34,428 nt of DNA from Chalciporus piperatus (lineage: Eukaryota; Basidiomycota; Agaricomycetes; Boletales; Boletaceae): NCBI GenBank assembly GCA_038093975.1, contig JBBPTG010000253.1, positions 1 through 34,428 of the forward strand, in the 5' to 3' direction. Under the pieces are notes generated by a model. It saw only the letters and a program-made list of their open reading frames with translations. It made no database searches and had not been told where the DNA came from. The translations under genes were made by a program, and so were the position numbers. Shown here one piece after another: positions 2,991 through 29,036 of this stretch (its first letter is position 1; the number at the start of each line of letters is the position of its first letter).

Positions 2991-3002
2991 AGCAAGGGGG
3001 AG
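2991..3002 (+). other. Polypurine tract of the copia element
   Basis: AGCAAGGGGGAG lies directly before the TG of the 3' LTR and 60 bases after the pol stop. This is the standard place for the plus-strand primer. Confidence 0.75.
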
Positions 3003-3241: not shown

Positions 3242-3256
3242 CATCAGGAAAAACCA
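3242..3256 (+). repeat. E1 left terminal inverted repeat
   Basis: CATCAGGAAAAACCA; exact complement at 6863-6877. Confidence 0.9.
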
Positions 3257-3639
3257 ACTTTACTCTCATAGCTATAATAGTTCTATAGAGTACTATAATT
3301 GCATTTATATTGCTTATAGGAAAAAGTGACAAGTCCCCTCTATGGAGCACTCTATAGCGCCCCCCAAAACTCTCATAGCTTTTATAATACTCTATAGACT
3401 CCAAAAGAATCAACAGCTATTGAGCTCTATAATAGCTTTTATAATACTATATAGACAGTACTAATTCTGCAGCAATTTACTGCCCTTTTTTGATTTCACT
3501 TCACACTGGTCAAAGATAGATAGGAAAAAATCACTTGTATTGGGAAGTCTATCTACTACATGTTGTATACTAATCTATCACTACAATGTGGTGGGGATGG
3601 GGCTGAGGTGATACGTCCAAGTCAATGGTCAGTGGGTTA

Positions 3640-4060
3640 ATTGGTGAGTAGACACTCACCTTGCCAGTGTGAGGCCAGCGGGCTGTTTTTTGGCATCAAG
3701 GTGGGAGGTGGTGGTGGGGCGAACAGCCCAAGCAGCTGTGTTAGAGGTGAGCGGTTGGATTGGTGGGTGAGTGAACACTCAAGCTTTTGGGTGCCAGTGG
3801 GCCTATTGACTCGTGTTAGAGGTGAGCGGCTGGGTTGGTGGGTGCACAAACACTCACTTCTGGGTGCTGGCGGGGCTGTTGAGCCCGCGCTGGCCTTGTG
3901 TTGTTTGAGTGGGGCTGAGGTGGGAGGTGGTGGTGGGCAGACAGCACCGAGCGGCTGCTAACGAGGTGAGTGGATGGGATGGTGGGTGAACTGGCGGTGG
4001 GCACTCACATCGTGATGCCGGCGGGGGCTGTTGAGCCCGCGCCAGCTTTGTTTTTCCAGT
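3640..4060 (-). repeat. Module A of E1: GC-rich hairpins with GTGAGT motifs
   Basis: Several degenerate units sit on the minus strand. Each has the form GCC(G/A)GCGxGGGCTCAACAGCCCCGCxGGC followed by an AGGTGAGT or AAGTGAGT. The best hairpins are near 3869-3894 and 4021-4046. They are separated by CACCCACCAACC-type spacers. Open frames across this stretch are by-products of the repeat, not genes. Confidence 0.8.
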
Positions 4061-4384
4061 TCAACGAGAAACGACATAACGCACGCGTGTGTTATGTCGT
4101 TTCTCGTGTCGTTCTCGTCCTTCACCCTCAACCTCAACCTCAACCTTACCCTCAACCTCACCCTCAACCTTACCCTCAACGGACGACGACGAGAAACAAC
4201 ACAGCGCGCGCGATCGTGCGCTGTGGTGTTTCTCGTCTTGTTCTCGTCATCCTCGACTCCTCCTCCTCCTCCTCGTCCTCCTCCTCCTCGTCCACTCTCA
4301 CCTCACCCTCCACTGACGACGACGAGAAACAACACAGCGTGCACGATCGTGCGCGCTGTGGTGTTTCTCGTCTCATTCTCATTC
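4061..4384. repeat. Module B of E1, left block: long palindromes and pyrimidine tracts
   Basis: Palindrome 1 has 17-bp perfect arms (4064-4080 and 4091-4107) around GCACGCGTGT. Palindrome 2 has 20-bp arms with one mismatch (4188-4207 and 4218-4237). Palindrome 3 is similar (about 4319-4375). All use GACGAGAAACxACA arms. Between them run CCTCAACCTCAACC and CCTCCTCCTCGTC tracts. Confidence 0.85.
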
Positions 4385-5774
4385 TTTTTTTTTTTTTTTT
4401 TTTTTTTTTTGTTCCATTTATGTCCAATTGGGGTAAAAGAACCCTATGTAAGACAAAGCTGGCAGTAAATAAAACGGTGCGCTGCGGAATTGCAGAAGAA
4501 AGTGGGTACATGTGTGATAGTAAAGCAAAATGCCTGTCCCACCGTGGTGGGCAAGCGGTTGAGGAAGAGTGGGATAAGGTAGGTGTTGTAAGTACGCAAT
4601 AGAACACGGCCAAAGAACCCACTGGCTGAGACGGGGAAGACAGCCAACTTCTGTTCAGTAGCAGGCTAATAGTTAAGGGTAAAATGAAAACATGGAGGGT
4701 GACCAGGGAGGATCATAACCTGCGTCGTGGCAGGTGAGAGCTTACTTTATGAATGGGACAGTGCACATGTTTACATCGATGGGATGCTCTTCAGGGTTAA
4801 TGCTCAGGGCTATGTCGCACGTGTCTGGATCCTCAAGGACCCTGGAGACACATATGTCCCCATTTGAGTCAAAGCCCACGAAGACCGGCGGCCCTCTCTT
4901 GAACAGAACCTGAACTGCTTGTGGCACCCCATCGGGCATGGAGTATGTGAGTGTTGGGCACATCCCAGAGTCGACATGGTAGAGGAAGGATGGGCAGTCG
5001 GCGTGATCCAACACAAGTTGGAGCCATTCGTGATCTGGGTGGGCTGTACGGCTCTGGATAGATGATAGGGTCGACATGGATGACTGCGGACGTAGAGGGA
5101 TATCTGGGATCACTGTGGGAGCGATCTCTGGGGAGCGGGGGTCAGGTGAACGCACCTCAAGTTCATGTTTGAGACTCCGAAGCTCCTCCTGGAGCCGCAT
5201 TACTTCCTTGTGGAGTTCCGCTATCTCCGCCGAGATAGCAGGGGGGGCAGGGTTGGGGGTTGTGAGGGGAATAACTTTGGCTTTGGCTAACGCCTCGCCC
5301 GCTGTTGACGGTTTGATGAGGGACTGCCCACGAAAGTGGACGATCATGTTGTTTTGATACAAGCGGACGATGGGGCGAAGAACCTGGCCAGAGTTGGCGT
5401 CCAAAGCCGAGGCATTCAGATGCACTTTGAATGAGTGGAATATAGAGACAACCCAACGCAGTGCCCTGCTGCTACCTTCCCCACATGAAGTGGGGATGAT
5501 AGGGACTGAGAATGATTTCCCCTTGTTGGGGCCTTCCTTGGTAGTCCAAGTCCAGGTGAATGGGTGGGCGGAGACATGTCGAAGAACCGAGCGCGGAACC
5601 GCAGGCGGGGAGAAGCGAGTACGGAATGTTCCCTTGGGAAAGGCGTGGAAGCGCTTCCCTATGTCAGAGAGAAGTATCTCGCAGGGAGAGTCTGTCGAGC
5701 AGATATGTTTGGGGGAGGATTGGGTTTTTCCCACGGGGGGATTATGGTGGTTAGAGTCCAAGGGCATTTTGATG
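4385..5774 (-). mobile_element. Poly(A)-tailed retrocopy inserted in E1
   Basis: A run of 26 T at 4385-4410 is a poly(A) tail on the minus strand. The 10-bp motif TTCTCATTCT occurs at both borders (4376-4385 and 5775-5784) as a likely target duplication. The ATG of the minus-strand gene lies 7 bases inside the right border. About 330 bases of 3' untranslated sequence separate the stop from the tail. E3 has no such island between its modules. The target is low-complexity, so the duplication alone is weak; together with the tail it is good evidence for LINE-type retroposition. Confidence 0.7.
4742..5767 (-). CDS. Unrecognised 341-aa protein with a central coiled coil (retrocopy)
   Basis: A complete frame runs from ATG to TAA without introns. 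I do not recognise the family. Residues 1-150 look globular, with a HPFTWTWTTKEG stretch. Residues about 175-210 contain EIAELHKEVMRLQEELRS, a heptad-like coiled coil. A Ser/Pro-rich linker follows, and then a second compact region rich in D, P and hydrophobics (FLYHVDSGM, FVGFDSNGD) to the end. There is no signal peptide or membrane segment. The frame is intact while most neighbours are broken, which suggests a young insertion or selection. Expression is unknown. An alternative view is that it is a processed copy of a host gene with no promoter of its own. Confidence 0.55.
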   Translation of the reverse strand: MPLDSNHHNPPVGKTQSSPKHICSTDSPCEILLSDIGKRFHAFPKGTFRTRFSPPAVPRSVLRHVSAHPFTWTWTTKEGPNKGKSFSVPIIPTSCGEGSSRALRWVVSIFHSFKVHLNASALDANSGQVLRPIVRLYQNNMIVHFRGQSLIKPSTAGEALAKAKVIPLTTPNPAPPAISAEIAELHKEVMRLQEELRSLKHELEVRSPDPRSPEIAPTVIPDIPLRPQSSMSTLSSIQSRTAHPDHEWLQLVLDHADCPSFLYHVDSGMCPTLTYSMPDGVPQAVQVLFKRGPPVFVGFDSNGDICVSRVLEDPDTCDIALSINPEEHPIDVNMCTVPFIK

Positions 5775-5784
5775 TTCTCATTCT

Positions 5785-6140
5785 CTTCCTCTCACCCTCA
5801 TCCTCGACTCCTCCTCCTCCTCGTCCACCCTCACCTCACCCTCGACTGACGACGACGAGACGGCGCGACACACGTGATCGCGTGTGTCGCGTGTGTCGTG
5901 TCGTTTCTCGCTTCTTGTCCTTCGTCAACAACGAGAAACGAGACAACGCACACGTGCGTTGTCTCGTTCCTCAGCTCGTTCTCTTCCTCACCTCTTCCTC
6001 ACCCTCACCCTCACCCCTCGCCCTCAGACGACGATGACGAGAGATGACGACGACACACGATCGCGTGTGTTGTCTCATCTCTCATTCTCATTCTCGTCTC
6101 CTCGTCCTTCACCATCACCCTCGTCCTTCACCCTCGCCCG
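5785..6140. repeat. Module B of E1, right block
   Basis: Palindromes of the same design recur: GACGACGAGACGG...GTGTCGTGTCGTTTCTCG near 5850-5910, AACGAGAAACGAGACAACGC...GTTGTCTCGTT near 5934-5975, and GAGAGATGACGACGACACAC...TCATCTCTC near 6037-6090. They are separated by CCTCACCCTC tracts. The minus strand of 5990-6026 has four G3+ runs with 3-4 base loops, a G-quadruplex pattern. Confidence 0.8.
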
Positions 6141-6229
6141 TCGTCTCTCGTTCTCGTTCGTCGCGAATGAAAACAGCGACAATGACAACTCGGACCAAAC
6201 GAGAACGCGACACTCGTTCTCCCTCACCC

Positions 6230-6500
6230 TCGTCCTTCAGCTGTTTGCGACCCCAGCAGCTCACCAACACCCCAAACGATCCACCGACACCTCAAAGGAC
6301 TTGTTCGTGACCCAAACAACTCACTGCCGCTTCAAACAACTCACCAACACCCCAAACGATGCATTCACAGCCCGAGCGACTAACCACCACCCCAAACAAC
6401 TCATTCATGACCCAAGCAACTCACGACTCACCAACACCCCCAAATGTTGCATTCACGGCCCGAACGACAGGCCAGCACCTATTTCCCCCCACTCCAAATG
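6230..6500. repeat. Degenerate CCCAAACAACTCACCAACACC repeats in E1
   Basis: Irregular units of roughly 20-45 bp share ACCCAAACGA/ACAACTCA and CACCAACACCCC. They have no consistent start codon or codon pattern and are repeat DNA, not a gene. Confidence 0.65.
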
Positions 6501-6554
6501 ACCTACCAGCTTCACCGTATATTTCTAAATTTTCCCTTTTATTTGCTTTTGTTG

Positions 6555-6877
6555 CCTGTACAGTAGCTACGTTGAAATCTATTAAGCTTGACATAAGTGT
6601 GAAGTAGAGGAGTTAGCTTGTTCTGCACTACGACTCCATGAAAGTTGAAGATGACAAGTAAATATGCATATCAGACCTTATGGGAGTTATTCTAGAACTT
6701 TATAGTACTCTATCTCACTTTCAAAAAGATATATAGTGATATGAGAGTTCCAATAGTACTTTATAAGTGCTCTACGTCACTTTCAGAATAATATATAGTA
6801 ATATAGAAGGTCCTATAGCAACCATAGCTCTATATAGATAAGACCCCTTCTATATAGGGAGATGGTTTTTCCTGATG
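6555..6877. repeat. E1 right subterminal region, nearly identical to E3
   Basis: This stretch matches 28720-29036 with only about ten differences by eye, mostly transitions. It contains repeated TATAGTACTCTA and ATATATAGTAATATAG motifs that mirror the left end, and closes with TGGTTTTTCCTGATG. It is the likely transposase-recognition end. Confidence 0.85.
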
Positions 6878-8275
6878 TTAAGAAGAGCATTGCAGGAACC
6901 AAAGGCGATATCGAGGCCGAACCTTTGAGCAAGAACTGTGAATGCTTGTCTGTGGTCGTGGGGGATGAACTCCTTGCTTCCACACAACTTCCGTTCAATG
7001 AAAACGAGGAAGTTTTGGAGTGAATCACCGGTGGTCTGTAAGACCCATCTGTGAATCAGTTAGCAGACACAGAAGCATAAAATCGGAAATAAGCACACAC
7101 AATGGACGGCCATATCGAATGATATGCTTCACTTGTGCAACTTCATCTGGTCGAACGACCCCGATCATCGGGGAATTCTGGTCCCATCCAAGCTGTGTAA
7201 ATGGCGAGAAATGCTGTTCTCCCTTAAGATTGACCCTTGCCGAGGGATCTAAGATTGTTTTAATTGTTAGGACGACAAACTATTATGAAATCACGTACAT
7301 AGATCTTGAGGAGATGCAAAGTGGACAACCTTCGACGTCGTCGAAGCAAACACGACCCAAACTGCATTGGTATGATTGTCTGAATATTCTTTGATAGTCC
7401 GGAGGAATACAGGTGCTCGGGAAAATGTTGAATCCCCCTGTTCATGCAATATGTGGGCCTCGTCCAGAGCAATCACCACCCTCGGTTTGTTCTTCTTGGC
7501 CTGCGGGAATCTCTTACTACTAACCATCCCCCGATAGTACTTGTTCATGACCTCGCTTCCTGCGGACGAAGTAGGAATTTCTTTCTTGACCTAGCATAAA
7601 TATGTGAATATGGCAACAAATATCGTAAATTCGTCGTACTCACATTTCCATACTCCCTCTTCAGATCCACAAAAAACGCGGTACGAGTAGGGCTCCCGAT
7701 GTGGCACATGGTTCCATACCAATCCAGCCCCTTCTCCAGGAACGTGCGAAGGACTTTGAAGACAGCGGAGAAAAATGCGTAGCACTGGATACCATACTCG
7801 TCTTCAGCGGAAGAAGCGCGGAGGAGATCTGCAGGTACATCGTCGTGGGGAGGCCATCCCTGTGCGTCGTTAGAGGATCTAATGTTCATGTACAATACGC
7901 AAACACCCTTTGTGGCAAGCTGCACGGAAGAGTGGATGTTAACTCAATTGTCAGACAAGACAGTGGAAACTCGCCTGAAGCATTAAATGTGTCTTTCCGG
8001 TACCGGAGCTCTGGACGATGGAGCCAACCTTGGCGTAATACACCGGGTCCTTAGCCACGTGAAATGCCTCATCATTTTTCTGGAGATACTTGTAGAATGC
8101 GTCGACGGCGAGACCTCGATAAGTGGCAGAAGGCAGAAAACCCATCCCTCAACGCTTTCAACTGGGTTTCCAAAAGGGGTACTGTGTATATCAAGTAAGG
8201 ACAAACTGAGACACGTAGACGGAGAAACCTACCCAATACTACGAGCCCATTCAGCTCGTTAGGCCGTACAGCAAG
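6878..8275 (-). pseudogene. P-loop NTPase host gene, multi-exon, 5' part; split by E1
   Basis: Minus-strand exons can be followed through five short introns: 8182-8232 (GT-AG), 7920-7974 (GC-AG), 7591-7643, 7249-7298 and 7049-7100, each 50-55 nt. Walker A is GSIVQSSGTGKT (about 7985-8020); Walker B is RVVIALDEAH (about 7470). Other family landmarks are VPLLETQLKALRDGF, VLYMNIRS, GMVSSKRFP and VVFASTTSK. This is the ATPase often seen in Agaricomycetes and linked by others to Crinkler-type systems; that link is only suggestive here. A one-base slip near 8125-8137 separates GFSA from ATYRGLAV. The gene is cut at 6878 by E1, and its upstream end merges into the tandem array. It is therefore a broken copy. 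No start codon could be fixed. Confidence 0.72.
7920..7974 (-). other. GC-AG intron of the P-loop gene
   Basis: The minus-strand junctions are CAG|GCGAGT and CCGTGCAG|CTTGCC, with CTGAC and TTAAC as possible branch sites. Splicing joins LMLQ to LATKGVCVLYMN, which matches the family order. The donor is GC, not GT. Confidence 0.6.
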
Positions 8276-8710
8276 GCCAGCCGATCACCAATTAGGCCGT
8301 GCTCTACTGGCCGGCTAACGATTGGCCGCTGGTGTATGGTCACCTAGGTTAGGGATCGGCTAGTAATAGAATGTACACGTAAAGTAGGGATCAGCCAATG
8401 TACCATTGTGCCCTGGCAGTGGGAATGGCCAACACAAAGGTTCCATGAGGTAGGACCTGGCCGACTGGTGCTAATCACCCAGTCCTGCCTGCATCAGGGT
8501 TTGGCCCATAGAGGTAGGAATAGGCCAATGGGTTGAGCCTCAATGCGTAGGAATGGGCCAATGGGTAGACCCTCAATGCTTAGGAATGGGCCGATATTCC
8601 TATTGTCACTAGGTAGGGGCGGGCCGATGTAAAGTTAGTCCATTGGTAGGGATGGGCCAATGCATTGAGCCTCAATGCGTAGGAATGGGCCAATGGGTTG
8701 AGCCTCAATG
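8276..8710. repeat. Degenerate tandem array, left block
   Basis: Units of about 30 bp built on TAGGAATGGGCCAATG or TAGGGATCGGCC, with spacers such as GGTTGAGCCTCAATGCG. Units nearest the P-loop gene are the most diverged. There is no gene here. Confidence 0.85.
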
Positions 8711-9170
8711 TGTTACGATCACCCATTCTTTCCTTCCCAATTACTTTGTACTAAGTCCTAGTCGCTGGTTCAAGTCCTGCCTAGGCCACTTATTTCTTAT
8801 TCCATCTTAGTCAGCGAACATTCCTTCATGTTCTTTCACCTTCTACACTTCGTCATCGCTGACTCATACGCTTACTGAGCATGACTCATTCTTATTCGTC
8901 ATAGCTCATTCTGACTCCTTCTACGCCTGCCCTTAACTAGTTCACTTATCTATATAAACCCTCGAGTCTCCTCCTGTAACCTTAACTTAGACCTGCGCAA
9001 TCTAGCCTGGTTACTCTTTACTTCCCTTGAACCCTCTGAGAGTCACCGTCCCACTCTTGAACGGACGCTAGGCCTTAACGTGGACATCCCATCGTTAGGC
9101 TATCTTTGAAACCCTTGCTTTAACTAGGCTTTTGTGTCTACGCTTTGACCTACCCAGTACAAGCGTAACA
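8711..9170 (+). mobile_element. Solo LTR, 460 bp, with 5-bp target duplication
   Basis: It begins TGTTACG and ends CGTAACA, 7-bp inverted ends with TG/CA. It is flanked by CAATG on both sides (8706-8710 and 9171-9175), and CAATG is part of the surrounding repeat unit. A TATA-like TCTATATAAACCC lies near 8950. No internal element sequence is attached, so it is a recombination remnant. Confidence 0.9.
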
Positions 9171-9713
9171 CAATGCGTAGGAATGGGCCAATGGGTTGAG
9201 CCTCAATGCGTAGGAATGGGCCGATATACCTAGTGTCACTAGGTAGGGATGGGCCGATGCAATCAGCGTCAATGTGTAGGGATGGGCCGATGCATTGAGC
9301 CTCAATGCGTAGGAATGGGCCGATGCAATCAGTGTCAATTTGTAGGAATGGGCTGATGGGTTGAGCCTCAATGCGTAGGAATGGGCTGACATACCTATTG
9401 TCACTAGGTAGGCATGGGCCGATGCAATCAGCGTCAATGTGTAGGGATGGGCCAATGGGTAGACCCTCAATGCGTAGGAATGGGCCGATATTTCTATTGT
9501 CACTAGGTAGGGGCGGGCCGATGTAAAGTTAGTCCATTGGTAGGGATGGGCCAATGCATTGAGCCTCAATGCGTAGGAATGGGCCGATGCAATCAGCGTC
9601 AATGTGTAGGGATGGGCCAATGGGTAGACCCTCAATGCGTAGGAATGGGCCGATATTTCTATTGTCACTAGGTAGGGGCGGGCCGATGTAAAGTTAGTCC
9701 ATTGGTAGGAATG
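9171..9713. repeat. Tandem array, right block (GGGCCGATG family)
   Basis: The array resumes after the solo LTR with better preserved units, such as CGTAGGAATGGGCCGATGCA and a longer unit containing CTATTGTCACTAGGTAGGGG. A long minus-strand open frame (9150-9668) reads as endless SAHPYxL repeats; this is an artefact of unit length, not a protein gene. Confidence 0.9.
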
Positions 9714-10167
9714 TGTTATAGTATTTAAAAACTTTTCAAACTTTTGCCTACAACGGTATTCGAACTCTGGACTTTGTCTACAACTTAGGGGTCAAGCCGG
9801 ATTCATCTTAATCCGCTCCGGTAGTCCCTGTAGCATTACGTAAACTATTACATAATCAGGTCACGTGACAAAGGTCCAGACTTAGATGAGTCAGCAATGA
9901 TGTCATGGCCTAGACCCTAATCTGTGCCTGGTACCTTTTCTTATTGTCGTCCCTTTACCTTATCTATCTTTCCCTTTATGATTTCCTTATCCGGCTGTTG
10001 GTCTGTGCGCACTTCTCAATAGTATATAAGTAGTCCTGTACTTATCACAGACCCCAGTCTAATCCATTTGTTGCTTCACCGCAATTAAGCTTTAGTACTC
10101 AGCATATCCCTTCGCAAAGGCTTAGTGTTGCCTTAAGTCCCTGCTGTGTTGTGACCCAGTCATAACA
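9714..10167 (+). repeat. 5' LTR of gypsy element G1
   Basis: It starts TGTTAT and ends ATAACA, 454 bp, and sits just upstream of a gag-pol element in the right orientation. The flank GAATG (9709-9713) is the likely target duplication; the other copy is lost with the 3' half of G1. It contains AGTATATAAG near 10021-10030, a good TATA box. Confidence 0.78.
10021..10030 (+). promoter_or_regulatory. TATA box in the G1 LTR
   Basis: AGTATATAAG lies about 140 bases before the LTR end, the expected U3/R position for transcription of the element. Confidence 0.55.
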
Positions 10168-10558: not shown

Positions 10559-11905
10559 ATGTCAGCAGAGCTCTACGATCAGGAACCACAAGCTCAAGGT
10601 TACAGATCTCCCCCACGTCACTTTCCGTCTTCATCCGAAAGTTTGCATCCACCTACTCCCCGCACCAAATCTCCTATGGCAGATCCAGTTGATCCCATCG
10701 CTGCCCTCACCGCCGCTCTGAAGGCGCTCATTTCAGACAATTCGGACTCCGTGTCCAAAAAGGTTGCCGACCCTGGGAAATGGGATGGTGATCGCACCAA
10801 GTTCCGTTTGTGGTGGGCGCAGGTTAACGCCTGGCAGTCCGTCCATACATGGAAAAACAACAAGGTTCGATGTCTCGCCGTACTCTCACGGTTAGAAGCA
10901 AAAGCGGCTGGATACGCGCAAATGATGATCGAGACCTGGTCTCGATTGGAACTTCTGCCACCGCCTCCCCCTGCAGAAGAAGATCCACTGGCGCCAGAAC
11001 CGGATCGCGCACCGATGGGCCTGAAAGCATGGCCAGATTGGATCGTGTTCTCAAAGATGCTCAAGGACTATTTCCAGATTGACGTTCTCGCTCATGAGAG
11101 TCTCAGGAAATTGGAAGCATTGAAGCAGGCTGGGAAACCTGTGGATATATTCATCCAGGAGTTTGAGTTGCTGAAAGCGGAATCGGAAATAGCAGATGCT
11201 CATGCCAAAGAGCTTCTGAAAAAGGCAATAGACTACAAAGTTTATTATCAGGCGCAAATCAACACTACCGTTGATGAGCAAAGCTACAACGACACGATCG
11301 ACACCTACCGAAAGTTAGGTCGCACGTTCGAACGTATCGTTGTTGAACGCGGTGCACCAGTTCGTCAGGCACCCGCTTCTGCCCCCAGGCCTTCTTCTTC
11401 TTCATATCCGTACCTTCCACCACGGTACCCAATTGCATCTCGCCCTCTTCCGCGTTCCCCCGCTTCGTATGCGGCTCCCCGTTTCACTCCCACAGGCACA
11501 TAGCCTGGTCGTGGAGCCCCGATGGATCTTTCGGCACAGCAAATGCCAAGATCCCCCGTTCGGGGAAACTGTTTCAACTGCGACCAGCCTGGTCACTTTG
11601 CAAACGTGTGCCCTAAACCCCGCAGGCCACGTCAGAGACAAGTTGTTATGTGGGACCCATATTCTCAACAATACGTTGAAACTTCCCTGCCGTTTGACAA
11701 CCGGCAGATGCCCTTCGCAGGTACCATCCCTGCACCCTACCCTCCTACCCCTTCCCCCTATCCCGCTGGCCCGTCCACCAGCACAAGTTACATGTCGCAT
11801 CAAGCGGCATATACAAACCAAGAAGCGGAAGCGTACTGGCGCGACCGCATTGAATCAGAAGCCAAGGCACAGGCAGCCGAGGCTTTAAAAGGAAACAGCC
11901 AATGA
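10559..11905 (+). pseudogene. G1 gag (capsid and zinc knuckle) with an in-frame stop
   Basis: ATG at 10559 opens a capsid-type protein (DPGKWDGDRTKFRLWW, then FSKMLKDYFQID and EFELLKAESEI). TAG at 11501-11503 interrupts it. The same frame resumes at once and carries the nucleocapsid zinc knuckle CFNCDQPGHFANVC (CX2CX4HX4C, about 11570-11611), then a Pro/Tyr-rich tail, ending at TGA 11903-11905. The stop fits CAG changed to TAG. Full length would be about 448 aa. Gag would form the particle and bind element RNA. Confidence 0.88.
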
Positions 11906-13383
11906 GAGAGATGGGTTCTCGGCGGCTCGGACATAGTTTACCAAATGGTTGTATTAGTACTACTCCTTGTGTTCCGTTCAAATATACTTTTTCTTCTTCT
12001 TCTGAAAGGGCGTCCCTTAGTGGTGTGGCGACAGAAGTAAAACAATTCATGCTTAATTCCCTTAAGGTAAATTATTCGAAAAAAGAAATCCCATCAAAAA
12101 TACATGTAAGGAATCAGAATCGGAAAAACGAGCTGGATCTCGCTATTACTATTATGTACGATATAGGGGAGCAATGGAAGAAAATGGAGTTTGCCGCTCT
12201 ATTGGATTCCGGCGCAACCGAAACCTTTATAGATAAATCGTTCTGTGAGCAACATGGTTTGACACTGGAAGAATTTCCTTTTCCTATTCCAGTGTACAAC
12301 GCCGACGGCTCAGAGGGAGCAATAGGCGGTGTCACTCACAAGGTTTCGCTTGTTTTGGGACACAATGGACATTTTGAACATATGGACGCTTTTGTTTCTG
12401 TACTTGGCACACACCACATGATCATCGGCTATGATTGGCTTGAGAGGCACAACCCTGAAATCGACTGGGTAGCCGAACAAGTACGATTCACACGCTGTAC
12501 AGATCAGTGCAAAGTAGTCAACTATCATTTGAATCGTTCTTTTTCTATTCGTCGAGTGTTTGAGGCGGGGCTTACCGAGAAAGTCCCAGTAGAACTCCAC
12601 GAGTACTTAGACGTCTTTTCAGAGCAAGAGAGTGAGCGTATGCCTACCCGAAAGGCGTGGGACCACGCAATAGATCTCAAGCCTGATTTCGTTCCCAAAA
12701 AGGGTCGGGTGATTCCGATGTCCGAACAGGAACTAGATGATGTCAAAAAGTTCATCGATAAGGAGTTATCGAAAGGATATCTTCGTCCGTCGAAATCCCC
12801 TCAGACATCTCCTGTTTTCTTTATTCCAAAAAAGAACGGTAAAAAGAGACTAGTTATGGACTATCGTTACGTAAATGAGGGAACTGTCAAGAATGCTTAC
12901 CCTCTTCCCCTCATTTCTGGACTTATCGACCAGCTCAAAGGAGCTGATATGTTTACAAAAATGGACCTTCGTTGGGGTTACAATAATGTTAGAATAAAAG
13001 AAGGCGACGAATGGAAAGCGGCTTTCGTTACTCCATTCGGCGCTTACGAACCAGTCGTTATGTATTTCGGACTTACGAACTCTCCCCCCACGTTTCAACA
13101 AATGATGAACGATCTATTTAGCGATCTTCATGGGGTTCTCATTATTTATATCGACGATCTCATGATCTTTACATTCGGAAAAACTAGAGCACAGCATTTA
13201 GAAATAGTTAAAACCGTATTGCAACGTCTTAGAGAGAACGATCTTTACGTAAAACCAGAAAAGTGCAGTTTCGCTGTAGATTCCGTAGATTTCTTGGGAA
13301 TGGTTATCTCCCAGAAAGGCGTAGAAATGGACAATTCGAAGGTGCAGGCTATTCTGGACTGGCCGACGCCAACTCGGTTGAAG
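11902..13383 (+). pseudogene. G1 pol: protease and reverse transcriptase, truncated
   Basis: ATG at 11902 overlaps the gag stop in the four bases ATGA. The aspartic protease has LLDSGATETFID (about residues 100-112) and MIIGYDWL. The RT carries SPVFFIPKKNGKKRLVMDYRYVN, FGLTNSPPTFQQMMND and the catalytic YIDD, then VDFLGMVIS and ILDWPTPTRLK. After 13383 the frame leaves the family sequence and stops at 13410. RNase H, integrase and chromodomain are missing. The following DNA belongs to G2, so the break is the G1/G2 junction. Confidence 0.9.
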
Positions 13384-13508
13384 GTGTGGCGGTGTAGAGT
13401 CAGGGGCTAGCGGGAGTCAGCAGAGAGCGTGCGGGAGATGCCGAGCGGAGTGTCAAACCCGTAGGATTGCGTAGCGCACAGCGTGTTCTAGTGGTTCAAG
13501 GCTTGTAG
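13384..13508 (+). other. G2 upstream sequence at the G1/G2 junction
   Basis: About 125 GC-rich bases precede the open gag frame of G2. No TG...CA LTR, TATA box or primer-binding site is visible. This suggests that G2 is truncated at its 5' end or joined to G1 by recombination. Confidence 0.45.
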
Positions 13509-17273: not shown

Positions 17274-17509
17274 CATCAGGAAAAACACCCTATGCCATAG
17301 TTGGCCATATGTGCAGCCATGGCACACATTGGACATATTTGTGCTATAAGTTGCACATATGGCACTATATGGGCTATTTATTGCTATAGTACACAATGCT
17401 ACTGATATATCTAGTACAATGTTTGATAGGCGTACTTACTAGACCAGTTATTAAGGATAAAATGTGTACAACTGTCCAATACATTACTGGAAGCCCAGGT
17501 GGTGTTGGC

Positions 17510-19620: not shown

Positions 19621-19714
19621 AACGTGGTGGATTGATCACGACAAGGACGCGCGATGGTAGACCTCGTTGTCTCCACGGTCGTCTTCGCGAAGGTGGCGGG
19701 CGCCGACACTGCGC

Positions 19715-19776
19715 CTTGGGACTACTCGAAAAGGGAATTGCGTAAATACGCAATTCCCTTTTCGAGTAGTCCCAAG
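19715..19776. repeat. Perfect 62-bp palindrome, 30-bp arms
   Basis: The left arm begins CTTGGGACTACTCG and ends GGAATTGCGTA (19715-19744). AA is the centre, and the right arm (19747-19776) is its exact complement. It would form a cruciform in DNA or a long hairpin in RNA. Confidence 0.95.
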
Positions 19777-19970
19777 CGAAGTTGGAACTATTTGGGGAAC
19801 AAGAGTGTGTTTCTGCCACTTGTCTGCTTTTCCACTGTTCCCACAGCCTTCAACTTCATCACACACGTATTTCTACCCAAGATGAGTTTTTTTCTTCTCT
19901 CCCGTTCTTTCTTTCACACCCAACCAAGTTTTAGCAACATGCCCACCTCCACCCGCTCAAACAAATGAGC
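19777..19970. other. Stretch between palindrome and module A in E4
   Basis: It holds pyrimidine-rich DNA (TTCTTCTCTCCCGTTC) and no gene that I can support. Confidence 0.4.
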
Positions 19971-19979
19971 TACCCCTGC

Positions 19980-20470
19980 GCCCAGGCCGGCGAGGGCTCA
20001 ACAGCCCCGCCGGCCTTACTAGGTGAGTTTCCACTCCCCCACCACCACATCCACTTACCTCGAGCATAGCTGCTCGTGCCCCACCATCACCTCCCACCTT
20101 CAACACCCACTCGAACACGGCCGGCGAGGGCTCAACAGCCCTGCCGGCCTCACTAGGTGAGTTTTCACTTACCCACCACCACATCTACTCACCACAGACT
20201 CCCTCCACAGCTCCCCACCACTTTTTTACGAGCCGGCGAGCTCGTTCGCGCACGCCGCCACCTCACGACACCTCCCGCACCTCCTCCCAACTCAAGGCCT
20301 CTAACTCAACATCAAAACACGGCTGGCGAGGGCTCGACAGCCCCGCCGCCATCATCAGGTGAGTTTCCACTCACCTACCACCACATGTACTCACCACAGA
20401 CCCCCTCCACAGCTCCCCATCGCTTTTTCCACCACCATCCCCATCCCCATCCCCGCTACTACCACAGCTA
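19980..20470 (+). repeat. Module A of E4: three GC hairpins with splice-donor-like motifs
   Basis: Hairpins GCCGGCGAGGGCTCAACAG...GCCGGC are at 19986-20014, 20120-20148 and 20322-20350 (the last less exact). Each is followed within about 10 bases by AGGTGAGTTTTCACT or AGGTGAGTTTCCACT. The spacers carry CCACCACCACATC. Orientation is opposite to that in E1 and E3. Confidence 0.88.
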
Positions 20471-20896
20471 ACACTGCCATTTCTGCTGCTGATACCCCCG
20501 TCGTTTAGATTTATTGTTTTGATTGTTTTACTTTTCATTTCATCATGTATTATATTAGCACTGAATTCAGCCTGAAGTATTTTAACTCAAGTGTGATATT
20601 TTGACATAAAGAGTGAAAAATGGCGCCATATGGAAAAGCCCCCAGTTGTTTTTTCACTTTTCCATTTGGTGCACATTGTGCACATATAGCTTATATTGAT
20701 AGAGGCCTTTTACATGTCTACAGGCCCTGCTATATGATGCAATTTGGTGCTATTTGTATGCTATATGATGCACTATAGTTGGATACTTTTCCCTTTTTGC
20801 CATATGGCCCATAGTGCACAAATAACATCAAATAGCATCAAATAGCATCAAATATTGCCATATGGTGACATATGGCATAAGTCATTTTTCCTGATG

Positions 20897-21469
20897 AAAG
20901 CGCTCTATGCAAATTCCCATACAGATTATCGTCCCTTCGCACACGATGAAAGCCGTCGAAACCCACACCCTCATTGATAGCGGCACGGACATCTCCTGTA
21001 TCGATTGGGGCTTCATACGAAAGAATCGAATCCCAACCACCCGACTCGAAACCCCTATTCGAGTCCGAAACGTCGACCAGACCGCAAACAAAAGTGGAAT
21101 GATACTCTTCACCACCACCCTTTTCCTTGACATTGAAGGAATCACACAAGAAGTAATCTTCCACATCATGAACTGTGGAAACGAAAATGTCATCCTAGGT
21201 CTCCCATGGCTTGAAAAGCTAACCCAACCATCGACTGGCGCCGATGAACCCTCTCACTATCAGAGTCCATCGACGAGTCAAAGAAGTTATATACCATACA
21301 CGCCGCGGCCTGTAAGGCGAACGACCAACTCTTCACTCGACCTATTTCTCCTCCCCGACACTCTTACATAACCCCAGAAGTCGATAAACAACTCTACGAC
21401 TACCTAGACTCTGAAACCGAATCCACCTTCCTTAACTGTGCCCATGAGAACCATACCCTAAACCACATT
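20897..21469 (+). pseudogene. G3 pol, protease part (gypsy chromovirus), split by E2
   Basis: The frame enters at the right end of E4 (KRSMQIPIQIIVPSH). The aspartic protease is ETHTLIDSGTDISCIDW (DSG at about 20970), then VILGLPWLEK near 21200. A slip near 21230-21250 moves the frame; the other frame continues with TRPISPPRHSYITPEVDKQL and reaches NHI at the E2 border. Gag and the 5' LTR are absent because E4 lies directly upstream. Confidence 0.85.
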
Positions 21470-21709
21470 CATCAGGAAAAACCTCTGCTGGATAATTTGT
21501 GCAATTATCCTAAAAATTTGTAAATTTGTCCAAATTTCAAGAATTTCATATATTTCCAAGAATTTCTGATATTTGTGGCAAATACTTGACCTTTCCAGCA
21601 TGTATGTTATATGAAATTTCTTAAATTTCATGAAAATCATGGTTATTAGTGATATTTTATGAAAATTCACAGTAACCATGGTAATTCATATGAACTGAGT
21701 AGAGAGGGT

Positions 21710-22140
21710 GCAATTAGAATGTAAACTCAAAGTGGGAAAAAGTGTACTGAAAGTGTAGGAAATTGTGGCTAGCTTGAGTGTAGCAAAGTGTACAAAAGAG
21801 CATAGTAAATGTATAGTTACAAGTGTGGGAAAGTGTAGCTAGATTGAGCTTAAGTGTAAAAAAAGTGTAGTAAATGTGTAGTTACAAGTGTGGGAAAGTG
21901 TAGCTGGATTGAGTGTACCAAAAGTGTACTAAAACTGTAATGAAAGTGAAGGAAAGTATATTAGGGAGTGTAGCTAGAATGTACCAAAAAAGCGTACTAA
22001 AACTGTGCTTAAAAGTGTAGGAAAGTGTACTAAGATTGGGTGTAGCTAAAGTGTACAAAAATGCGTACAGAATGTGTAGTTAAAAGTGTAGGAAAGTGTG
22101 ATTTGAAAGTGGACAAAAAGTGTACATAAGTGTAGCCCTA
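21710..22140. repeat. GTGTAG-type subterminal repeats of E2
   Basis: Irregular units such as AAGTGTAGGAAAGTGTAGC, GTGTAGTTACAAGTGTGGG and AAAGTGTACTAAA repeat about ten times without coding potential. They may be transposase-binding clusters. Confidence 0.75.
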
Positions 22141-22279
22141 TTTCCCTAATGGTTGGACTTGTCAAACATCCGCGCGAGCAGGTCACGTGACCGTGTTGAA
22201 CTTGCCGCGTCGGCATTTTCGAGTCCTCACCACTACAACTACTTACTACTACCCAACAACCCACCTCAACACAGCATGA

Positions 22280-22930
22280 AAACACAGCCGGCGCGGGCTC
22301 AACAGCCCCGCCGGCTTCGACAGGTGAGTATTTTTTAACTATCCTCGACAGGCTCAGTGACTTCGAACACAGCCGCATGTTCTCTTTGCCCCACTCGCTC
22401 ACCTCAAACACAGCCGCTCGGGCTGCTTGCCCACCACCATCCCCCACCTATCCAATTTGACACCAAAGCAAGGCCGGCGAGGGCTCAACAGCCCCGCCGG
22501 CATCACCAGGTGAGTTCTCACTCACCACCACTGGCACCACATCTACCCACCTTGTACCCAGCTGCTCGCGCTCGACACGAAAACGCGAAAATGTGTGGGC
22601 GCTATTGCCCCACCACCACACCCCACCTCAACCTCAACACGATGACACGGCCGGCGTGGGCTCAACAGCCCCGCCGGCTTCACAAAGTGAGTGTTCGTTC
22701 GCCAACCAATCCAACCCAGCTACTTACCTCGTACACAGCAGGTCGGGCTGTTTGCCCCATCACCACCACCTCCGAGTCCCGTCTCACCCAGCCTCAGCTC
22801 GCTCAACTCGCACACAGTCGCTTGGGCACGCCGCCACCTCCTGCCACCTCTAACACCATTTTAAACATTTCCACAAGCGTGAACGGCCGGCGTGGGCTCA
22901 CCAGCCCCGCCGGCATCACCAGGTAAGTCT
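22280..22930 (+). repeat. Module A of E2: four GC hairpins with AGGTGAGT
   Basis: Hairpins GCCGGCGxGGGCTCAACAG...GCCGGC are at 22287-22315, 22473-22501, 22650-22678 and 22886-22914, with spacing 186, 177 and 236 bp. They are followed by CAGGTGAGTA, CAGGTGAGTT, CAAAGTGAGT and CAGGTAAGTC. The last unit has ACCAG in place of ACAG in the loop. Open frames here (ARAQQPRRH...) are repeat artefacts. Confidence 0.9.
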
Positions 22931-23591
22931 CGCTCACCCACCACCATATCCACTCACCACAGATCCCTATCACAGATCCCCACTGTGTTTTCGCAAGCCG
23001 GTAAGCTTGTTTGAGTTCGCCAGCATCTCATGACACCTCCTGCACCTCACAACACCTTTTCATGAGCTTCACTGGTTTGCCTGTGCATTCCTTGGGACAT
23101 GCTGGGTCTGTCCACCATCATAAGTAAGTTCATTCCCCCACCATCTCTGCTTCCTCTCTCATCACCATGCATAGCTGTACCTTGCTTGACATGATCACCA
23201 CCCTACCATGCTCCCTGGGTCTATCCAGCTCCATAGTAGTAGTTATATGTATAGTACATGTTGTAGTCAGTTGTCAATATACTGGTTTTCAACCAATATG
23301 TTTGATTTGTGTGAAATGGAAGTGAAAGAATAGCTGTAATAGGATGGAGAATAGGCTGAGATTATGAGCAAATTGTAGGTATTATCAACAAATGTCTGCA
23401 TATATCTGTTCAATTACCATGCATTTTGGTAGATAATTGTATGGAAATATAAGGAAATTTTCGCAAAACCAGTGAAAAACAAGGGGGGGCTAGTTATTTT
23501 CAGAGAATTGTGTGAAATACTGAAATATGACCAATACCAGATATTATTGGATATTTCATGGAAATATCAGCTATTATCAGCTATTATATAT
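22931..23591. other. E2 right arm, AT-rich
   Basis: A CACCATCACC/TCATAAGTAAG zone grades into AT-rich DNA with repeated GAAATAT and ATTATC words. I see no gene. Confidence 0.5.
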
Positions 23592-23619
23592 AATTATCTG
23601 GGAGAGGTTTTTCCTGATG

Positions 23620-26600
23620 TTATTCGTTGCGGTTCACGTTTTGTTCCCAACCATGTTGTCGCTCGTCTTACTCGAGCTACTGAACTCGCAATCGCGGCCG
23701 AACTGGCTAAACCCAAACCCATCCTTCCAGAAGAATATGTCAAATATACTTCGGTTTTCAACGAACCCTCAGCTGGTCACCTTCCTCCATCACGAGTTTA
23801 TGACCACGAGATCAACCTGAAGAAATCCTTCGTCCCCAAGATCGGAAAGCTTTATCCGCTATCTCCGGATGAAAAGAAAGCCACAGAAGACTTCCTCGAA
23901 GAAAACCTTCGTACAGGAAAGATACGTCCTTCCAACTCCCCCCAAGCATCTCCTTTTTTCTTCGTCAAAAAGAAAGATGGAAAACTCCGCCCCTGCCAAG
24001 ACTATTGGTATCTCAACGAACATACTACCCGAGATGCATATCCACTTTCCCTCATCGGAGATCTCGTCGATAAACTGAAAGACGCTAAAGTTTTTACCAA
24101 GTTCGATGTACGATGGGGTTACAACAATGTCCGCATCAAAGACGGACATCAGTGGAAGGCCGCTTTCCTCACCCACAAAGGCCTCTTTGAACCGACCGTG
24201 ATGTTCTTTGGACTGAACAACTCCCCGGCTACCTTCCAACGCTTCATGAATGACTCTTTTAGAGACATGATAGCCGAAGGATGGCTCGTCATCTATATGG
24301 ACGATCTCCTCATCTTCTCTCCCAACGATGCTACTCACACTGCTCGCACGCAACGAGTCCTCGAACGGATGCAAGAGCTAGATCTCCATCTCCGTTTGGA
24401 AAAATGCAACTTTGCCGTAAATGAGGTAGAATATCTTGGCATGATCATCCGCCCCGGAGAGCTTGCCATGGATCCAGTCAAACTCGATGGCATCTCTCAA
24501 TGGCCCATTCCCACTACAGTTAAGGAAGTTCGCTCATTCCTTGGCTTCGCCAACTTCTACCGACGTTTCATCCCAAACTACTCTTTAGTAGCCCGCCCCT
24601 TGATCGATCTGACCAAAAAGGATCATCGATGGGATTGGAGCAACGCCTGCCAAGATGCCTTCACCCGCCTGAAACAGATGTTCTTGGCAAAACCCGTCCT
24701 ACGCTTCCCTGATCTCTCCAAATCCTTCGCCATCGCAACTGATGCCTCCAAATTTGCCTCTGGCGGTATACTCCTCCAGACTGACGCCAACGGCAATTGG
24801 CACCCCTGTTCCTACCTCTCCCAGTCTTTCGGCAATGCCAAACGGAACTACGACATCTATGATCGAGAACTCCTCGCTGTGATCCGCGCACTGAAAACCT
24901 GGCGACATTATCTCCACAGCTCTCCCTTCCCCGTCTAGGTATTCACTGATCACAAGAACCTGACCTACTTCCGCCAACCCCAGAATCTAAATCGTCGGCA
25001 AGCCCGATGGCTGCTTGATCTCGCCGACTTTGACTTGAAAATGATTCATGTCCCCGGCTCATCCCTCGCCGGTCCTGATGCCTTATCCAGGCGCGCTGAC
25101 CACTTCCCCACTAACGCCGATGACAACGCGGGTACAACTCTACTACCACCCTCCCTATTCATCCGTGTCATTAACGCCGCCATGAACAACCACATTTCCA
25201 GTCTTTCTAAAAATGATCCATTCCTCCTCACTGCACTACAAGCCATTGACGGTGATATCCCTGCGCCATTCCGATCCCGGTTGGCTGACTGGCAGATGAC
25301 TAATGATGTCCTGACCTATCAAGGTCGCGTTTACATCCCGCCAGACGAAAACTTACGTTGCACCGTCGTTCAATGCTGCCATGATCACCCCACCGCCGGC
25401 CATCCAGGTTATCTCAAAACTAGACAACTGGTCGCCGCTGAATTCTGGTGGCCTGGACTTGCACAGTTTGTCCGCAAATATGTTGAAGGGTGCGCAACCT
25501 GCCAACAGAATAAGGCAAACACACATCCAACTACCCCCCCTTTAATGCCCATACCGTCAAAGAGCTCTAAACCGTTCCAGCAAGTGTCTTGTGATCTGAT
25601 CACTGACCTGCCCATTTCCAATGGCTTCAATTCTCTGTTGGTCGAGGGGGTAATTCTCTGTCCTACTAAAAAAACTGTCACCGCCGAAGGGATTGCCTCC
25701 CTCTTTTTCCACAAAGTCTATCTGAGATTTGGCCTTTATGACAAAATCATCAGCGACCGAGGACCACAATTCGCATCTGAGTTCGCTCGTGAACTAGGAC
25801 GAATCCTCGGATACAACCTTTCTCTCTCCACCGCCTACCACCCCCAATCTGATGGGGAAACCGAACGTGTCAACCAGGAAGTAGAAACCTATCTCTGAAT
25901 CTACTGCGGAGATAACCCCATATCCTGGGCTGATTCTATCTCCCACGCCGAATTTGCACACAATCATCGACCCCACTCTGTCACCGGCAAATCCCCATTC
26001 TATCTCATGATGGGATATGAACCCCGTCCTCTTCCTTCGGTAATTGCCGACTCCGCTCTACCCGCTGTCGAACTTCGCCTTCACTCCCTCACTGCTACCA
26101 GAGACGAAGCACTCGCCTCACACGAGTTTGCCAGACAAGTGATGTCCGCACGAACTCGACAGAAGTTCAAACCATTCGCCAAAGGAGACAAAGTCTGGCT
26201 AGAGGCAGGAAACCTCAAATGATCCCTTACCTCCCCAAAGTTCACCCCAACAGGTCTTATCCCCGCTATCTTATAAACTCCGACTCCCACACATGTGGAA
26301 GATCCACCCCGTGTTTCATGCTTCTCTGTTATCGCCCTATCGCGAAAACCCCGTCCACGGACCGAACTTCCCGGCTCCACCACCTGACTTGATAGAAGGC
26401 GAAGAAGAGTATGAAATCGAAAAGATTCTTCGACACCGAAGCTTCTCTGGACGCCACTCGTACCTGGTCTGCTGGAAAAGATATATGGCCGATGAAGACC
26501 GCTGGCTTAAAGAAGCAGACCTTACCCACACCAAGGACATCCTAGAAAACTATAAGAAAGCTCACCCATCCGCTTTCCCTTCCTCTTCAAGATCTCCATC

Positions 26601-26628
26601 TTCTGTCAAACGAAAAACTCGTCGATAA
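23620..26628 (+). pseudogene. G3 pol: RT, RNase H, integrase, chromodomain; several stops
   Basis: This continues G3 after E2. The RT has SPFFFVKKKDGKLRP, FGLNNSPATFQRFMND and YMDD (about 24295-24306). RNase H has IATDASKFASGG and YDRELLAVIRALKTWRHYL. The integrase has H-H-C-C (HDHPTAGHPGYL, CATCQQNK), D in SCDLITDLP, D in ISDRGPQFAS and E in QSDGETERVNQE. The chromodomain is YEIEKILRHRSF...YLVCWKRY near the end. In-frame stops are TAG 24936-24938, TGA 25896-25898 and TGA 26220-26222. A frame change lies between 26222 and 26293. The integrase core also seems to lack a few residues after NSLLV. All three stops fit C-to-T changes of CAG, CGA and CGA. Confidence 0.93.
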
Positions 26629-26819
26629 AACATGTCTGCTCCCGCTACCCCCTCTGTTACTATAGCTTTTATAATACTATATAGACAGTACTAATTCTGC
26701 AGCGATTTACTGCCCTTTTTTTGATTTCGCTTCACACTGGTCAAAGATAGATAGGAAAAAATCACATGTATTGGGAAGTCTATCTACTACATGTGTTGTA
26801 TACTAATCTATCACTACAA

Positions 26820-27600
26820 TGTGGTTGGGATGGGGCTGAGGTGATACGTCTGAGTCAATGGTCAGTGGCTTGGTTGGTGAGTAGACACTCACCTTGCCAG
26901 TGCGGGGCCAGCGGGGCTGTTTTTTTGGCGTCAAGGTAGGACTGGTGGTGGTGGGGCGAACAGCCCAAGCAGCTGTGTTAGAGGTGAGCGGTTGGATTGG
27001 TGGGTGAGAAAACACTCACGCTTTTCATGGTGAGGTGGAAGGTGGTGGTGGGGTAAACAGCCCAAGCAGCTGTGTTGGAGGTGAGCGGTTGGGTTGATGG
27101 GTGAGCAAACTGGACACTCACATTTGGGGCTATTGAGCCCATGCTGGCGTTTTCATGGTGAGGGTGCCAGCAGGTGATGGTGGGTGAACAGCCCCAACAG
27201 CTGAATTTGAGGTGAGCAGATGGGTTGGTGGGTGCACAAACACTCACTTCTGGGTGCTGGCGGGGCTGTTGAGCCCACACTGGCTGTTTGTTTTCATGTC
27301 GAAGTCAGAGCTGGTGGTGGGGCAAACAGCCCGAGCGGCTGTGTTGTTCGAGTGGCAGTGGGCACTCACATCGTGATGCCAGCGGGGGCTGTTGAGCCCG
27401 TGCCGGCTTTGTTTTTCCAGTTGCCAAGGGTGGGTGAGGTGAGAGGTGGACCGTGGTGATGGTGGTGAGGCCAACAGCCCGAGCGGCTGCAAACGAGGTG
27501 AGCGGATGGTGTGGTGGGTAAGTTTTCACTTACATTGTGATGCCGGGGGGGCTGTTGAGCCCACACCAGCTTTGTTGACGTGTTGAGGTGTGGTGTAGAG
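26820..27600 (-). repeat. Module A of E3
   Basis: Minus-strand hairpin units lie near 26905-26925, 27125-27147, 27257-27285, 27379-27408 and 27542-27570. They share GGCGGGGCTGTTGAGCCC (plus-strand reading) and CACTCACxT, the complement of the AGTGAGTG motif. Spacers read GGTGGTGGTGGGGCAAACAG. Confidence 0.85.
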
Positions 27601-27729
27601 ATAAGGTAGTAGTAAGTAGGAAGTCGAGAGAAGTAAGTTGGAAAAAATGACACAGCGAGTTCACGGTCACGTGACTCGCTCGCGCAGATTTTCGTGAAGT
27701 TCCAAGGTGACCTACTAATCTTACTACAC

Positions 27730-27915
27730 TAGTCCTACACTTGACTGAGGCGTGCGACAACTGAAGACTCACCAGGAAGCCCCACAAGACTCATCAGAAA
27801 ACCCCACCAAGCCACCAGATCGACTCGACGAGTTGACGAAGCCCACAGACAACCAAAACACGGGGCGGGACGCGCGAATCGAGCAGGTCGAGGCTCGAAA
27901 CGAGTACGTGGTAAG
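27730..27915 (+). other. Possible captured exon fragment in E3
   Basis: One frame is open, with balanced composition (LKTHQEAPQDSSENPTK, then RDARIEQVEARNEYV), and meets GTAAGT at about 27912. It lies between the modules, where E1 holds its retrocopy. I do not recognise it, and it may be chance. Confidence 0.25.
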
Positions 27916-27949
27916 TCAATGAACATCACCACTTACGCACTGACGAAAA

Positions 27950-28610
27950 TCCCACCCAAACGACGGCGCGCGAACGATACGACGCACATGACAACGGACG
28001 ACACAACGGACGAGGACGTCGTTCTCGTTCTCGTCCTCACCTCACCCTCGTCCTCACCCTCGTCCTTCACCCTCTCACCCTCACCCTCACCTCACCCTCG
28101 CCCTCCACTGACGACGACGCCGACGACGAGAGACGACACAACGCCTGCGTTTGCGTGCGTTGCATGTCGTTCTCGTCCTTCACCCTCAACCTCACCCTCG
28201 TCCTTCACCCTCTCACCCTCACCCTCACCCTCGGCCACCTCACCCTCATCCTTCACCCTCTCACCCTCACCCTCAACCTCACCCTCACCCTCAACCCGAC
28301 CGACGACGACGAGAAAAGACCCGATGCACGCAATCACGTGTGTCGTGTGTTTTCTCGTCGTCGTCTCATTCCCTCGTCCTTCACCCTCTCACCATCACCA
28401 TCATCTCACCCTCATCCTCGCCCTCCACTGATGACGACGCCGATGAGAGACGGTGCGACACACGTGAGCACGTGTGTTGCGTCATTTCTCGTTCTCGCCG
28501 TCTCGTCTCGTCTCGTCTCGTTCTCATCCTCATCCTCCCTCACCCTCGACTGACGATGACGATGACACGCGATCACGTGTTGTCGTCGTCTCTCATTCTC
28601 ATTCATAATT
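27950..28610. repeat. Module B of E3: palindromes and CCTCACCCTC tracts
   Basis: Four palindrome-like units occur near 28118-28172, 28305-28365, 28440-28495 and 28553-28600, all built from GACGACGAGA/TCTCGTCGTC arms and ACACGTG centres. Long CCTCACCCTCACCCTC tracts separate them. The minus strand has many GGG runs. Confidence 0.82.
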
Positions 28611-28719
28611 TATGAGAACCGTGTAAACCTGAGCAAAAATAGTACAGATTTTCGCCAGAATGCATATGTCCTAATTATAGTTGTCTGTGTCTACAGCTGC
28701 TACGTGAGGTGTCATCAGG

Positions 28720-29036
28720 TGTCAGCTACGTTGAAACCTATTAAACTTGAAATAAGTGTGAAGTAGAGGAGTTAGCTTGTTCTGCACTACGACTCCATGA
28801 AAGTTAAAGACGACAAGCAAATATGCATATCAGACCTTATGGGAGTTATTATAGAACTTTATAGTACTCTATCTCACTTTCAAAAAGATATATAGTGATA
28901 TGAGAGTTCCCATAGTACTTTATAAGTGCTCTACGTCACTTTCAGAATAATATATAGTAATATAGAAGGTCCTATAGCAACCATAGCTCTATATAGATAA
29001 GACCCCTTCTATATAGGGAAATGGTTTTTCCTGATG
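28720..29036. repeat. E3 right subterminal region
   Basis: Near-identical to 6555-6877 of E1, ending in the terminal inverted repeat. Confidence 0.88.

Follow-up and report, generated by a model that had tools for sequence, protein, structure and literature searches.

The 34,428-nucleotide contig JBBPTG010000253.1 of Chalciporus piperatus (Boletales; GenBank assembly GCA_038093975.1), referred to here as the window and, among the contigs (C-numbers), as C253, carries four elements, E1 to E4, with ends of the type CATCAGG..CCTGATG. We are very confident that these elements are copies of the published transposon group PlavakaB, with E1 and E2 complete, E3 probably rearranged, and E4 truncated; they are probably served by the Plavaka transposase of larger elements located elsewhere in the genome (35.5 Mb, 484 contigs; L-numbers denote stretches taken from it). 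The elements are genuine and moved in the recent past, and their superfamily is a known one.

The first-pass annotation, which was made from the letters of the window alone, could name no superfamily that matched these elements. That question is now answered, as the termini, the length of the target site duplication (TSD), and the transposase all match PlavakaB, and the transposase is encoded in the same genome. The annotation had also allowed that the ends might prove to be those of a known transposon family; as far as the published group PlavakaB is concerned, they do. Furthermore, the analysis documents precise 2-bp duplications together with empty sites of PlavakaB-type elements in this member of the Boletales. 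It also reveals ten or more target dinucleotides and provides a terminal signature that annotators can now use for copies without a transposase.

Terminal Sequences in the Window and the Genome

The window contains seven exact copies of the terminal word CATCAGGAAAAA, at 3242, 17274, and 21470 on the forward strand and at 6877, 20896, 23619, and 29036 on the reverse strand. When up to one mismatch was allowed, nine occurrences were found compared with 0.17 expected, a number that was attained in 0 of 100 shuffles. The CATCAGG..CCTGATG termini stand at both sides of E1, E2, and E3 and at the right side alone of E4. The perfect terminal inverted repeats (TIRs) are 15 bp long in E1, 17 bp in E2, and 12 bp in E3. 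These results bear out the earlier description of E1–E4 as TIR elements with one terminal type in common. Their treatment as four equivalent copies has to be revised: only E1 and E2 are complete, whereas no duplication flanks E3 and the left end of E4 is missing.

The genome-wide search that had been proposed for these ends gave 326 exact CATCAGGAAAAA ends (162 forward and 164 reverse), compared with 3 (2 and 1) for the reversed control. The E1-type ends, CATCAGGAAAAACCA, were found at 43 genomic places, and both E1 end types also occur in L042 (TSD CC) and L048 (TSD AG).

Target Duplications and Empty Sites

E1 (3242–6877, forward strand, 3636 bp) is a complete element with TT on both sides, at 3240–3241 and 6878–6879 (..ACATT and TTAAG..). 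Similarly, E2 (21470–23619, forward strand, 2150 bp) is complete and is flanked by TT at 21468–21469 and 23620–23621 (..ACATT and TTATT..); all four TT copies were read directly. The target of E2 is a gypsy-type element, of which an open reading frame (ORF) starting at 23472, within the right end of E2, has RVT_1 and RNase H domains. E3 (17274–20896, forward strand, 3623 bp) has CT on the left and AA on the right (..CCCT and AAAG..) and thus no matching duplication. The TT duplication that had been attributed to the family therefore holds for E1 and E2 but not for E3, and in E4 the left end is missing.

Is a 2-bp duplication a general property of these ends? We compared 28 strict end pairs, comprising 20 chosen genome pairs, 5 pairs in Plavaka loci, and 3 in the window. 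The 20 genome pairs were chosen among the first 100 of the 326 end places as a plus end followed by a minus end 0.6–7.2 kb apart; the sample leaves aside the pairs on C51, C53, C54, C62, and C75, the neighbours 10.5–14.6 kb apart on C35, C62, and C76, and the second right end of L049. A 2-bp duplication was present in 19 of the 28 pairs, and ten different dinucleotides were represented (TT in four; AA and TA in three each; CC and AG in two each; CA, CT, TC, AT, and TG once each). In an unpaired-end control, 69 of 756 combinations agreed (9.1%), which gives a binomial probability of 5e-14 for 19/28, a value that is indicative only because many of the elements are related. At five shifted positions, agreement fell to 0–4 of the 28 pairs, and a 3-bp target match was found in none (0/28). 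The earlier suggestion that TT, or ACATTA, reflects a target preference is rejected by the ten dinucleotides among the 19 duplications.

A comparison of flanks with empty sites had also been proposed. The 200-bp left flank of E2 matched at least 39 other places, and the right flank matched at least 39 as well. Among the matches listed, the left and right flank matches overlapped by exactly 2 bp in all 29 pairable copies (29/29), and 10 of the 39 left-flank copies had no partner. For E1, the paralogue on C125 was matched at 5139–5193 and 4941–5140, again with a 2-bp overlap. Contigs C121, C142, and C345 fit the E1 empty site provided that their shorter matches are lengthened manually and ungapped, and C53 showed the left flank of E1 only, among the matches listed. 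Because the flank matches overlap by 2 bp, the empty sites of E2 and E1 hold the target dinucleotide once.

Could the ends instead have spread through recombination or gene conversion, without transposition? The pairs that have no duplication (9/28), the rearranged appearance of E3 and E4, and the presence of the same internal modules in elements with different ends would all fit such a history. However, the exact 2-bp overlap in every pairable E2 empty site and in one E1 empty site, together with the 19 duplications, requires precise insertion, and recombination would be able to explain only the minority of pairs without a TSD. We consider this explanation extremely improbable.

Plavaka Transposases Elsewhere in the Genome

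A profile search for the Plavaka domain PF18759 gave at least 135 matches in the genome and none in 14 control genomes. None of these matches lies on C253, and a Pfam scan of the 11 longer ORFs within E1–E4 found no transposase family, in agreement with the earlier observation that no transposase is visible in the four elements. Since they carry no transposase of their own, E1–E4 are filed as non-autonomous.

Twenty Plavaka loci were examined, six of which (L011 and L020–L024) had been picked with a nearby end already known. A CATCAGG end in right-end orientation was located 1527–2030 bp downstream of the Plavaka domain in 14 of the 20 loci (6/6 of the preselected loci and 8/14 of the others); only 2 of the 20 had an end in the wrong orientation in the first 3 kb downstream. 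The end at 2988 bp in L017 was excluded from the 14, being part of another, 1408-bp element. In L028 (492–7063, 6572 bp, TSD TA) and L025 (2611–9471, 6861 bp, TSD CA), a Plavaka transposase is encoded between both ends; these represent transposase-bearing copies of the kind that the first-pass annotation had suggested looking for. Furthermore, the element at 1464–8176 of L012 encloses a Plavaka domain and has no TSD, and in L030 a Plavaka transposase stands beside a right end.

The terminal 30 bases of E2 are identical to those of the L028 element at 24–27 of 30 positions, which suggests that L028 would supply the transposase for E2-type ends. A 1089-bp element in L021 (TSD TA) also aligned with L028, over 188 bp and with 94.7% identity in the best segment. 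Four transposase ORFs match PF18759 at 1.3e-72 to 4e-87, and in their alignment D143, C158-x2-C161, H366-x3-H370, E387, and E390 are invariant. The first D is presumed to be that in DKTQLT, which three of the four ORFs contain; the fourth begins downstream of this position. By resemblance to the published description, these conserved D, C, H, and E residues may have the corresponding catalytic roles. Among the named homologues of one transposase, the best is a Suillus protein.

These findings also bear on the idea that the window elements represent an unnamed new TIR superfamily with a preference for TT (ACATTA). Such a superfamily would be in keeping with the lack of a recognised transposase within E1–E4 and with the two clean insertions in the window, both at TT. 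On the other hand, the transposase-bearing elements L025 and L028 have the same kind of ends, the 19 duplications use ten dinucleotides, and termini and TSD lengths of this kind have been published for PlavakaB (PMC12730594). A new superfamily is therefore rejected as highly improbable, on account of the transposases that lie between ends of the same kind.

Several observations weigh against the assignment of E1–E4 to PlavakaB elements served by such transposases. Six of the 20 Plavaka loci (L014, L016, L017, L018, L019, and L027) have no right end within 2.1 kb of the domain; in L014, an end lies 3.9 kb downstream, outside the 3 kb counted. The ends of L025 are mutually perfect across only 7 bp. 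When the PF18759 matches were compared with the 43 places of E1-type ends, no transposase-bearing element with ends of this type was found. Nine of the 28 strict pairs (L012, which bears a transposase, L031, L037, L038, L039, L041, L045, L047, and E3) have no duplication. The Plavaka domains without CATCAGG ends in L016, L018, and L027 might be candidates for PlavakaA, with its TGT..ACA termini.

Assignment to PlavakaB and Proposed Mechanism

As described in the available text of PMC12730594, PlavakaB families have the termini CATCA..TGATG and a 2- or 3-bp TSD, and PlavakaA has the termini TGT..ACA and a 2-bp TSD. Plavaka, EnSpm, and Transib have C(2)C and H(3-4)H motifs in common and form part of the CMCT clade; Plavaka transposases are related to those of EnSpm, the fungal members of which have CAC..GTG termini and a 3-bp TSD (PMC12730594). 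In the available text of PMC8290104, Plavaka is defined by pfam18759, and non-autonomous elements are assigned to groups according to the TIR and TSD seen in autonomous families. In that of PMC9674265, Plavaka is named once, within a deletion.

The elements described here resemble PlavakaB of Agaricomycotina (PMC12730594) in their CATCA..TGATG termini, in the 2-bp TSD of 19 of 28 pairs, in the PF18759 domain between the ends (L012, L025, and L028), and in the C(2)C and H(3-4)H motifs, which lie between the second D and the last E in the four aligned ORFs. They differ in that E1–E4 carry no transposase but do contain hairpin arrays, and in that no 3-bp TSD was found in the 28 pairs. Judged by the termini, the TSD length, and the transposase between such ends, E1–E4 thus appear to belong to PlavakaB, within the CMCT clade. 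The choice of PlavakaB over PlavakaA is based on the termini, which are CATCAGG..CCTGATG in the present elements and TGT..ACA in PlavakaA.

CACTA/EnSpm proper deserves consideration as the superfamily of E1–E4, since it belongs to the same CMCT clade, has CA..TG termini as the window elements do, and has transposases to which those of Plavaka are related (PMC12730594). However, the CAC..GTG ends and the 3-bp TSD described for it were not found here: the ends are CATCAGG, a 3-bp match was seen in none of the 28 pairs, and each of the four scanned transposase ORFs gave a PF18759 match. An origin from CACTA/EnSpm proper is accordingly very unlikely. Two further classes were rejected on similar grounds. 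Helitrons have neither inverted repeats nor target duplications, in contrast to the perfect 12–17 bp TIRs of E1–E3 and the duplications described above. Tc1/mariner elements duplicate TA, which accounts for only 3 of the 19 duplications.

How would elements without a transposase move? In cut-and-paste transposition of the DDE (aspartate–aspartate–glutamate) type, an element is recognised at its inverted ends by the transposase, released from the donor site, and inserted at a staggered cut, the repair of which duplicates the target. The Plavaka DDE transposase produced by the larger elements probably acts in this way on the CATCAGG ends, cutting the element out and joining it to target cuts staggered by 2 bp, after which repair of the gaps would duplicate whichever dinucleotide is present. 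The ends, the duplications, and the empty sites are the observed products of such a reaction, and they occur in the same genome as the transposase. E1–E4 would thus probably have moved in trans, with a transposase supplied from another part of the genome. Following this scheme, E1 and E2 would be complete insertions, E3 an insertion whose flanks were rearranged afterwards, and E4 a truncated copy.

A comparable situation has been described in Marasmius oreades, in which the TIRs and TSDs of autonomous families served to classify the non-autonomous elements and Plavaka is among the groups (available text of PMC8290104). The non-autonomous elements of that fungus are mostly shorter than 1000 bp, whereas 20 of the 24 pairs analysed here that have neither a Plavaka match nor a nested retroelement measure 1.7–3.7 kb (range 652–3636 bp).

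Hairpin Arrays and Shared Modules

All four window elements contain hairpin units. E3 has an array of three (starting at 19982, 20117, and 20321; 19982–20350, forward strand) and E2 an array of four (22283, 22469, 22646, and 22882; 22283–22911, forward strand). Similarly, two matches were found in E1 (3866 and 4017; 3866–4046, reverse strand) and three in E4 (27256, 27378, and 27542; 27256–27571, reverse strand). When these 24 pairs, which have no Plavaka match and no nested retroelement, were screened by fuzzy matching, 19 contained a degenerate hairpin array; by the same method it is absent from L038, L040, L043, L045, and L049 and from the transposase-bearing L012, L025, and L028. A genome search with the consensus, GGCCGGCGNGGGCTCAACAGCCCCGCCGG, gave 335 exact matches, compared with none for the reversed pattern. 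The consensus is often followed by GGTGAGT..ACTCACC, which is an inverted repeat in itself. The word hairpin is absent from the main text of PMC12730594.

Are the hairpins confined to CATCAGG elements? They are not, as many of the 100 places listed, out of 335, have no CATCAGG pair among the ends listed. The element at 6463–9543 of L019 (3081 bp), which by eye is inserted into a Plavaka transposase gene, has the ends CATCAGCAACACTGC and TG on both sides, and carries the hairpin modules of E1–E4. L051 has the same modules and is 93% identical over most of its length; its right end, the one end observed, is CATCAGCAACACTGC. Elements with different PlavakaB-type ends therefore share related cargo.

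We considered whether the modules might be exons, since the GTGAGT...CTCACC sequence is intron-like and, in the part examined, GT[AG]AGT follows 45 of 87 units. The spacing shows no reading frame: successive hairpin distances leave remainders of 0, 1, and 2 in 26, 17, and 18 of 61 cases, in a test that is rough because the starts given by fuzzy matching shift by a few bases. The possibility of a known RNA family was likewise rejected, as no Rfam match was obtained in the window at the gathering threshold. Could the arrays, which are apparently non-coding, serve as functional cargo, either by binding the transposase or a host factor or as a source of structured RNA, which is swapped between families with CATCAGGAAAAA and CATCAGCAACACTGC ends and is selected through transposition, in elements that also acquire host gene fragments? 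We regard this proposal as doubtful. The arrays, together with the apparent capture of a gene fragment by E3, are the parts that deserve specialist attention.

E3 and Its RPN1-Like Fragment

By eye, the left flank of E3 is a gypsy-type reverse transcriptase region and the right flank a protease region; among the loci compared, L021 matches the right flank, and no match to the left flank was found. The best segments of L031, L034, L039, and L050 are 98.8–100% identical to E3, which suggests recent activity. Because two of these relatives, L034 (100%) and L050 (98.8%), keep the duplications TT and TG, respectively, E3 was probably rearranged after insertion.

E3 contains an ORF of 143 amino acids (17484–17915, reverse strand), the first 51 residues of which match the model PF17781 of the proteasome subunit RPN1 (2.8e-5; 24.2 bits, compared with the curated cut-off of 22.4). 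On the basis of this 51-residue match, the ORF is probably a captured host gene fragment. Elsewhere in the genome, it recurs full-length at 7 places with 97–99% identity and at 2 more as split matches of 91%; with the window counted, six of the places (the window, C1, C3, C17, C46, and C62) lie within end pairs. Residues 1–96 have a 79% match on C64, which could be the donor gene. The ORF had no match among PDB sequences of solved structures or in NCBIfam. Pack-MULEs and Pack-CACTA are non-autonomous TIR elements that carry fragments of host genes. E3 resembles them in its apparent host gene fragment, although Pack-MULEs and Pack-CACTA belong to other superfamilies. Our literature search found no study combining Pack-TYPE, transposon, and basidiomycete.

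E1 and Its Relative E4

E1 carries an ORF of 341 amino acids (4742–5767, reverse strand), which is probably part of a retroposed gene spanning 4385–5783 on the same strand. This reading is suggested by a poly(T) stretch of 26 bases on the 3' side of the ORF (4385–4410) and by a 9-bp direct repeat around the gene (4376–4384 and 5775–5783); the repeat alone is weak evidence for retroposition because the word is present three times in E1. The ORF has 17 matching stretches across the genome, its own copy counted, and 44 homologues, the named ones being from Scleroderma, Pisolithus, and Boletus (Boletales). The left flank of E1 is located 55 bp beyond a repeated stretch that resembles the end of a Copia long terminal repeat.

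E4 (26662–29036, forward strand, with a left boundary uncertain by a few bases) appears to be a left-truncated relative of E1 that has only the right terminus. Its right end is 97% identical to E1 over 313 bp. Because the E1-like sequence starts at ~26662, directly beside gypsy sequence, E4 would lack ~190 bp at the left.

Other Elements and Repeats

A PlavakaB-ended element at 201–7378 of L035 (7178 bp, TSD TA) has a retroelement inserted at about base 37. The ORFs of this retroelement resemble gag, reverse transcriptase, RNase H, and tyrosine recombinase, and its direct repeats (47 and 158 bp) are split, as in Ngaro/DIRS elements. We rejected the idea that this element has a reverse transcriptase of its own; by eye, and with no Pfam match, it is a small element interrupted by an Ngaro/DIRS-like retroelement.

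Pieces of Copia-type and gypsy-type retrotransposons make up much of the window (2–3186 and 11902–26660). A degenerate 33-bp tandem repeat (GTAGGAATGGGCC..) with higher-order periods of 66, 99, and 165 bp extends from 8508 to 9764, and an ORF at 32951–33997 matches DUF6818 (4.8e-8).

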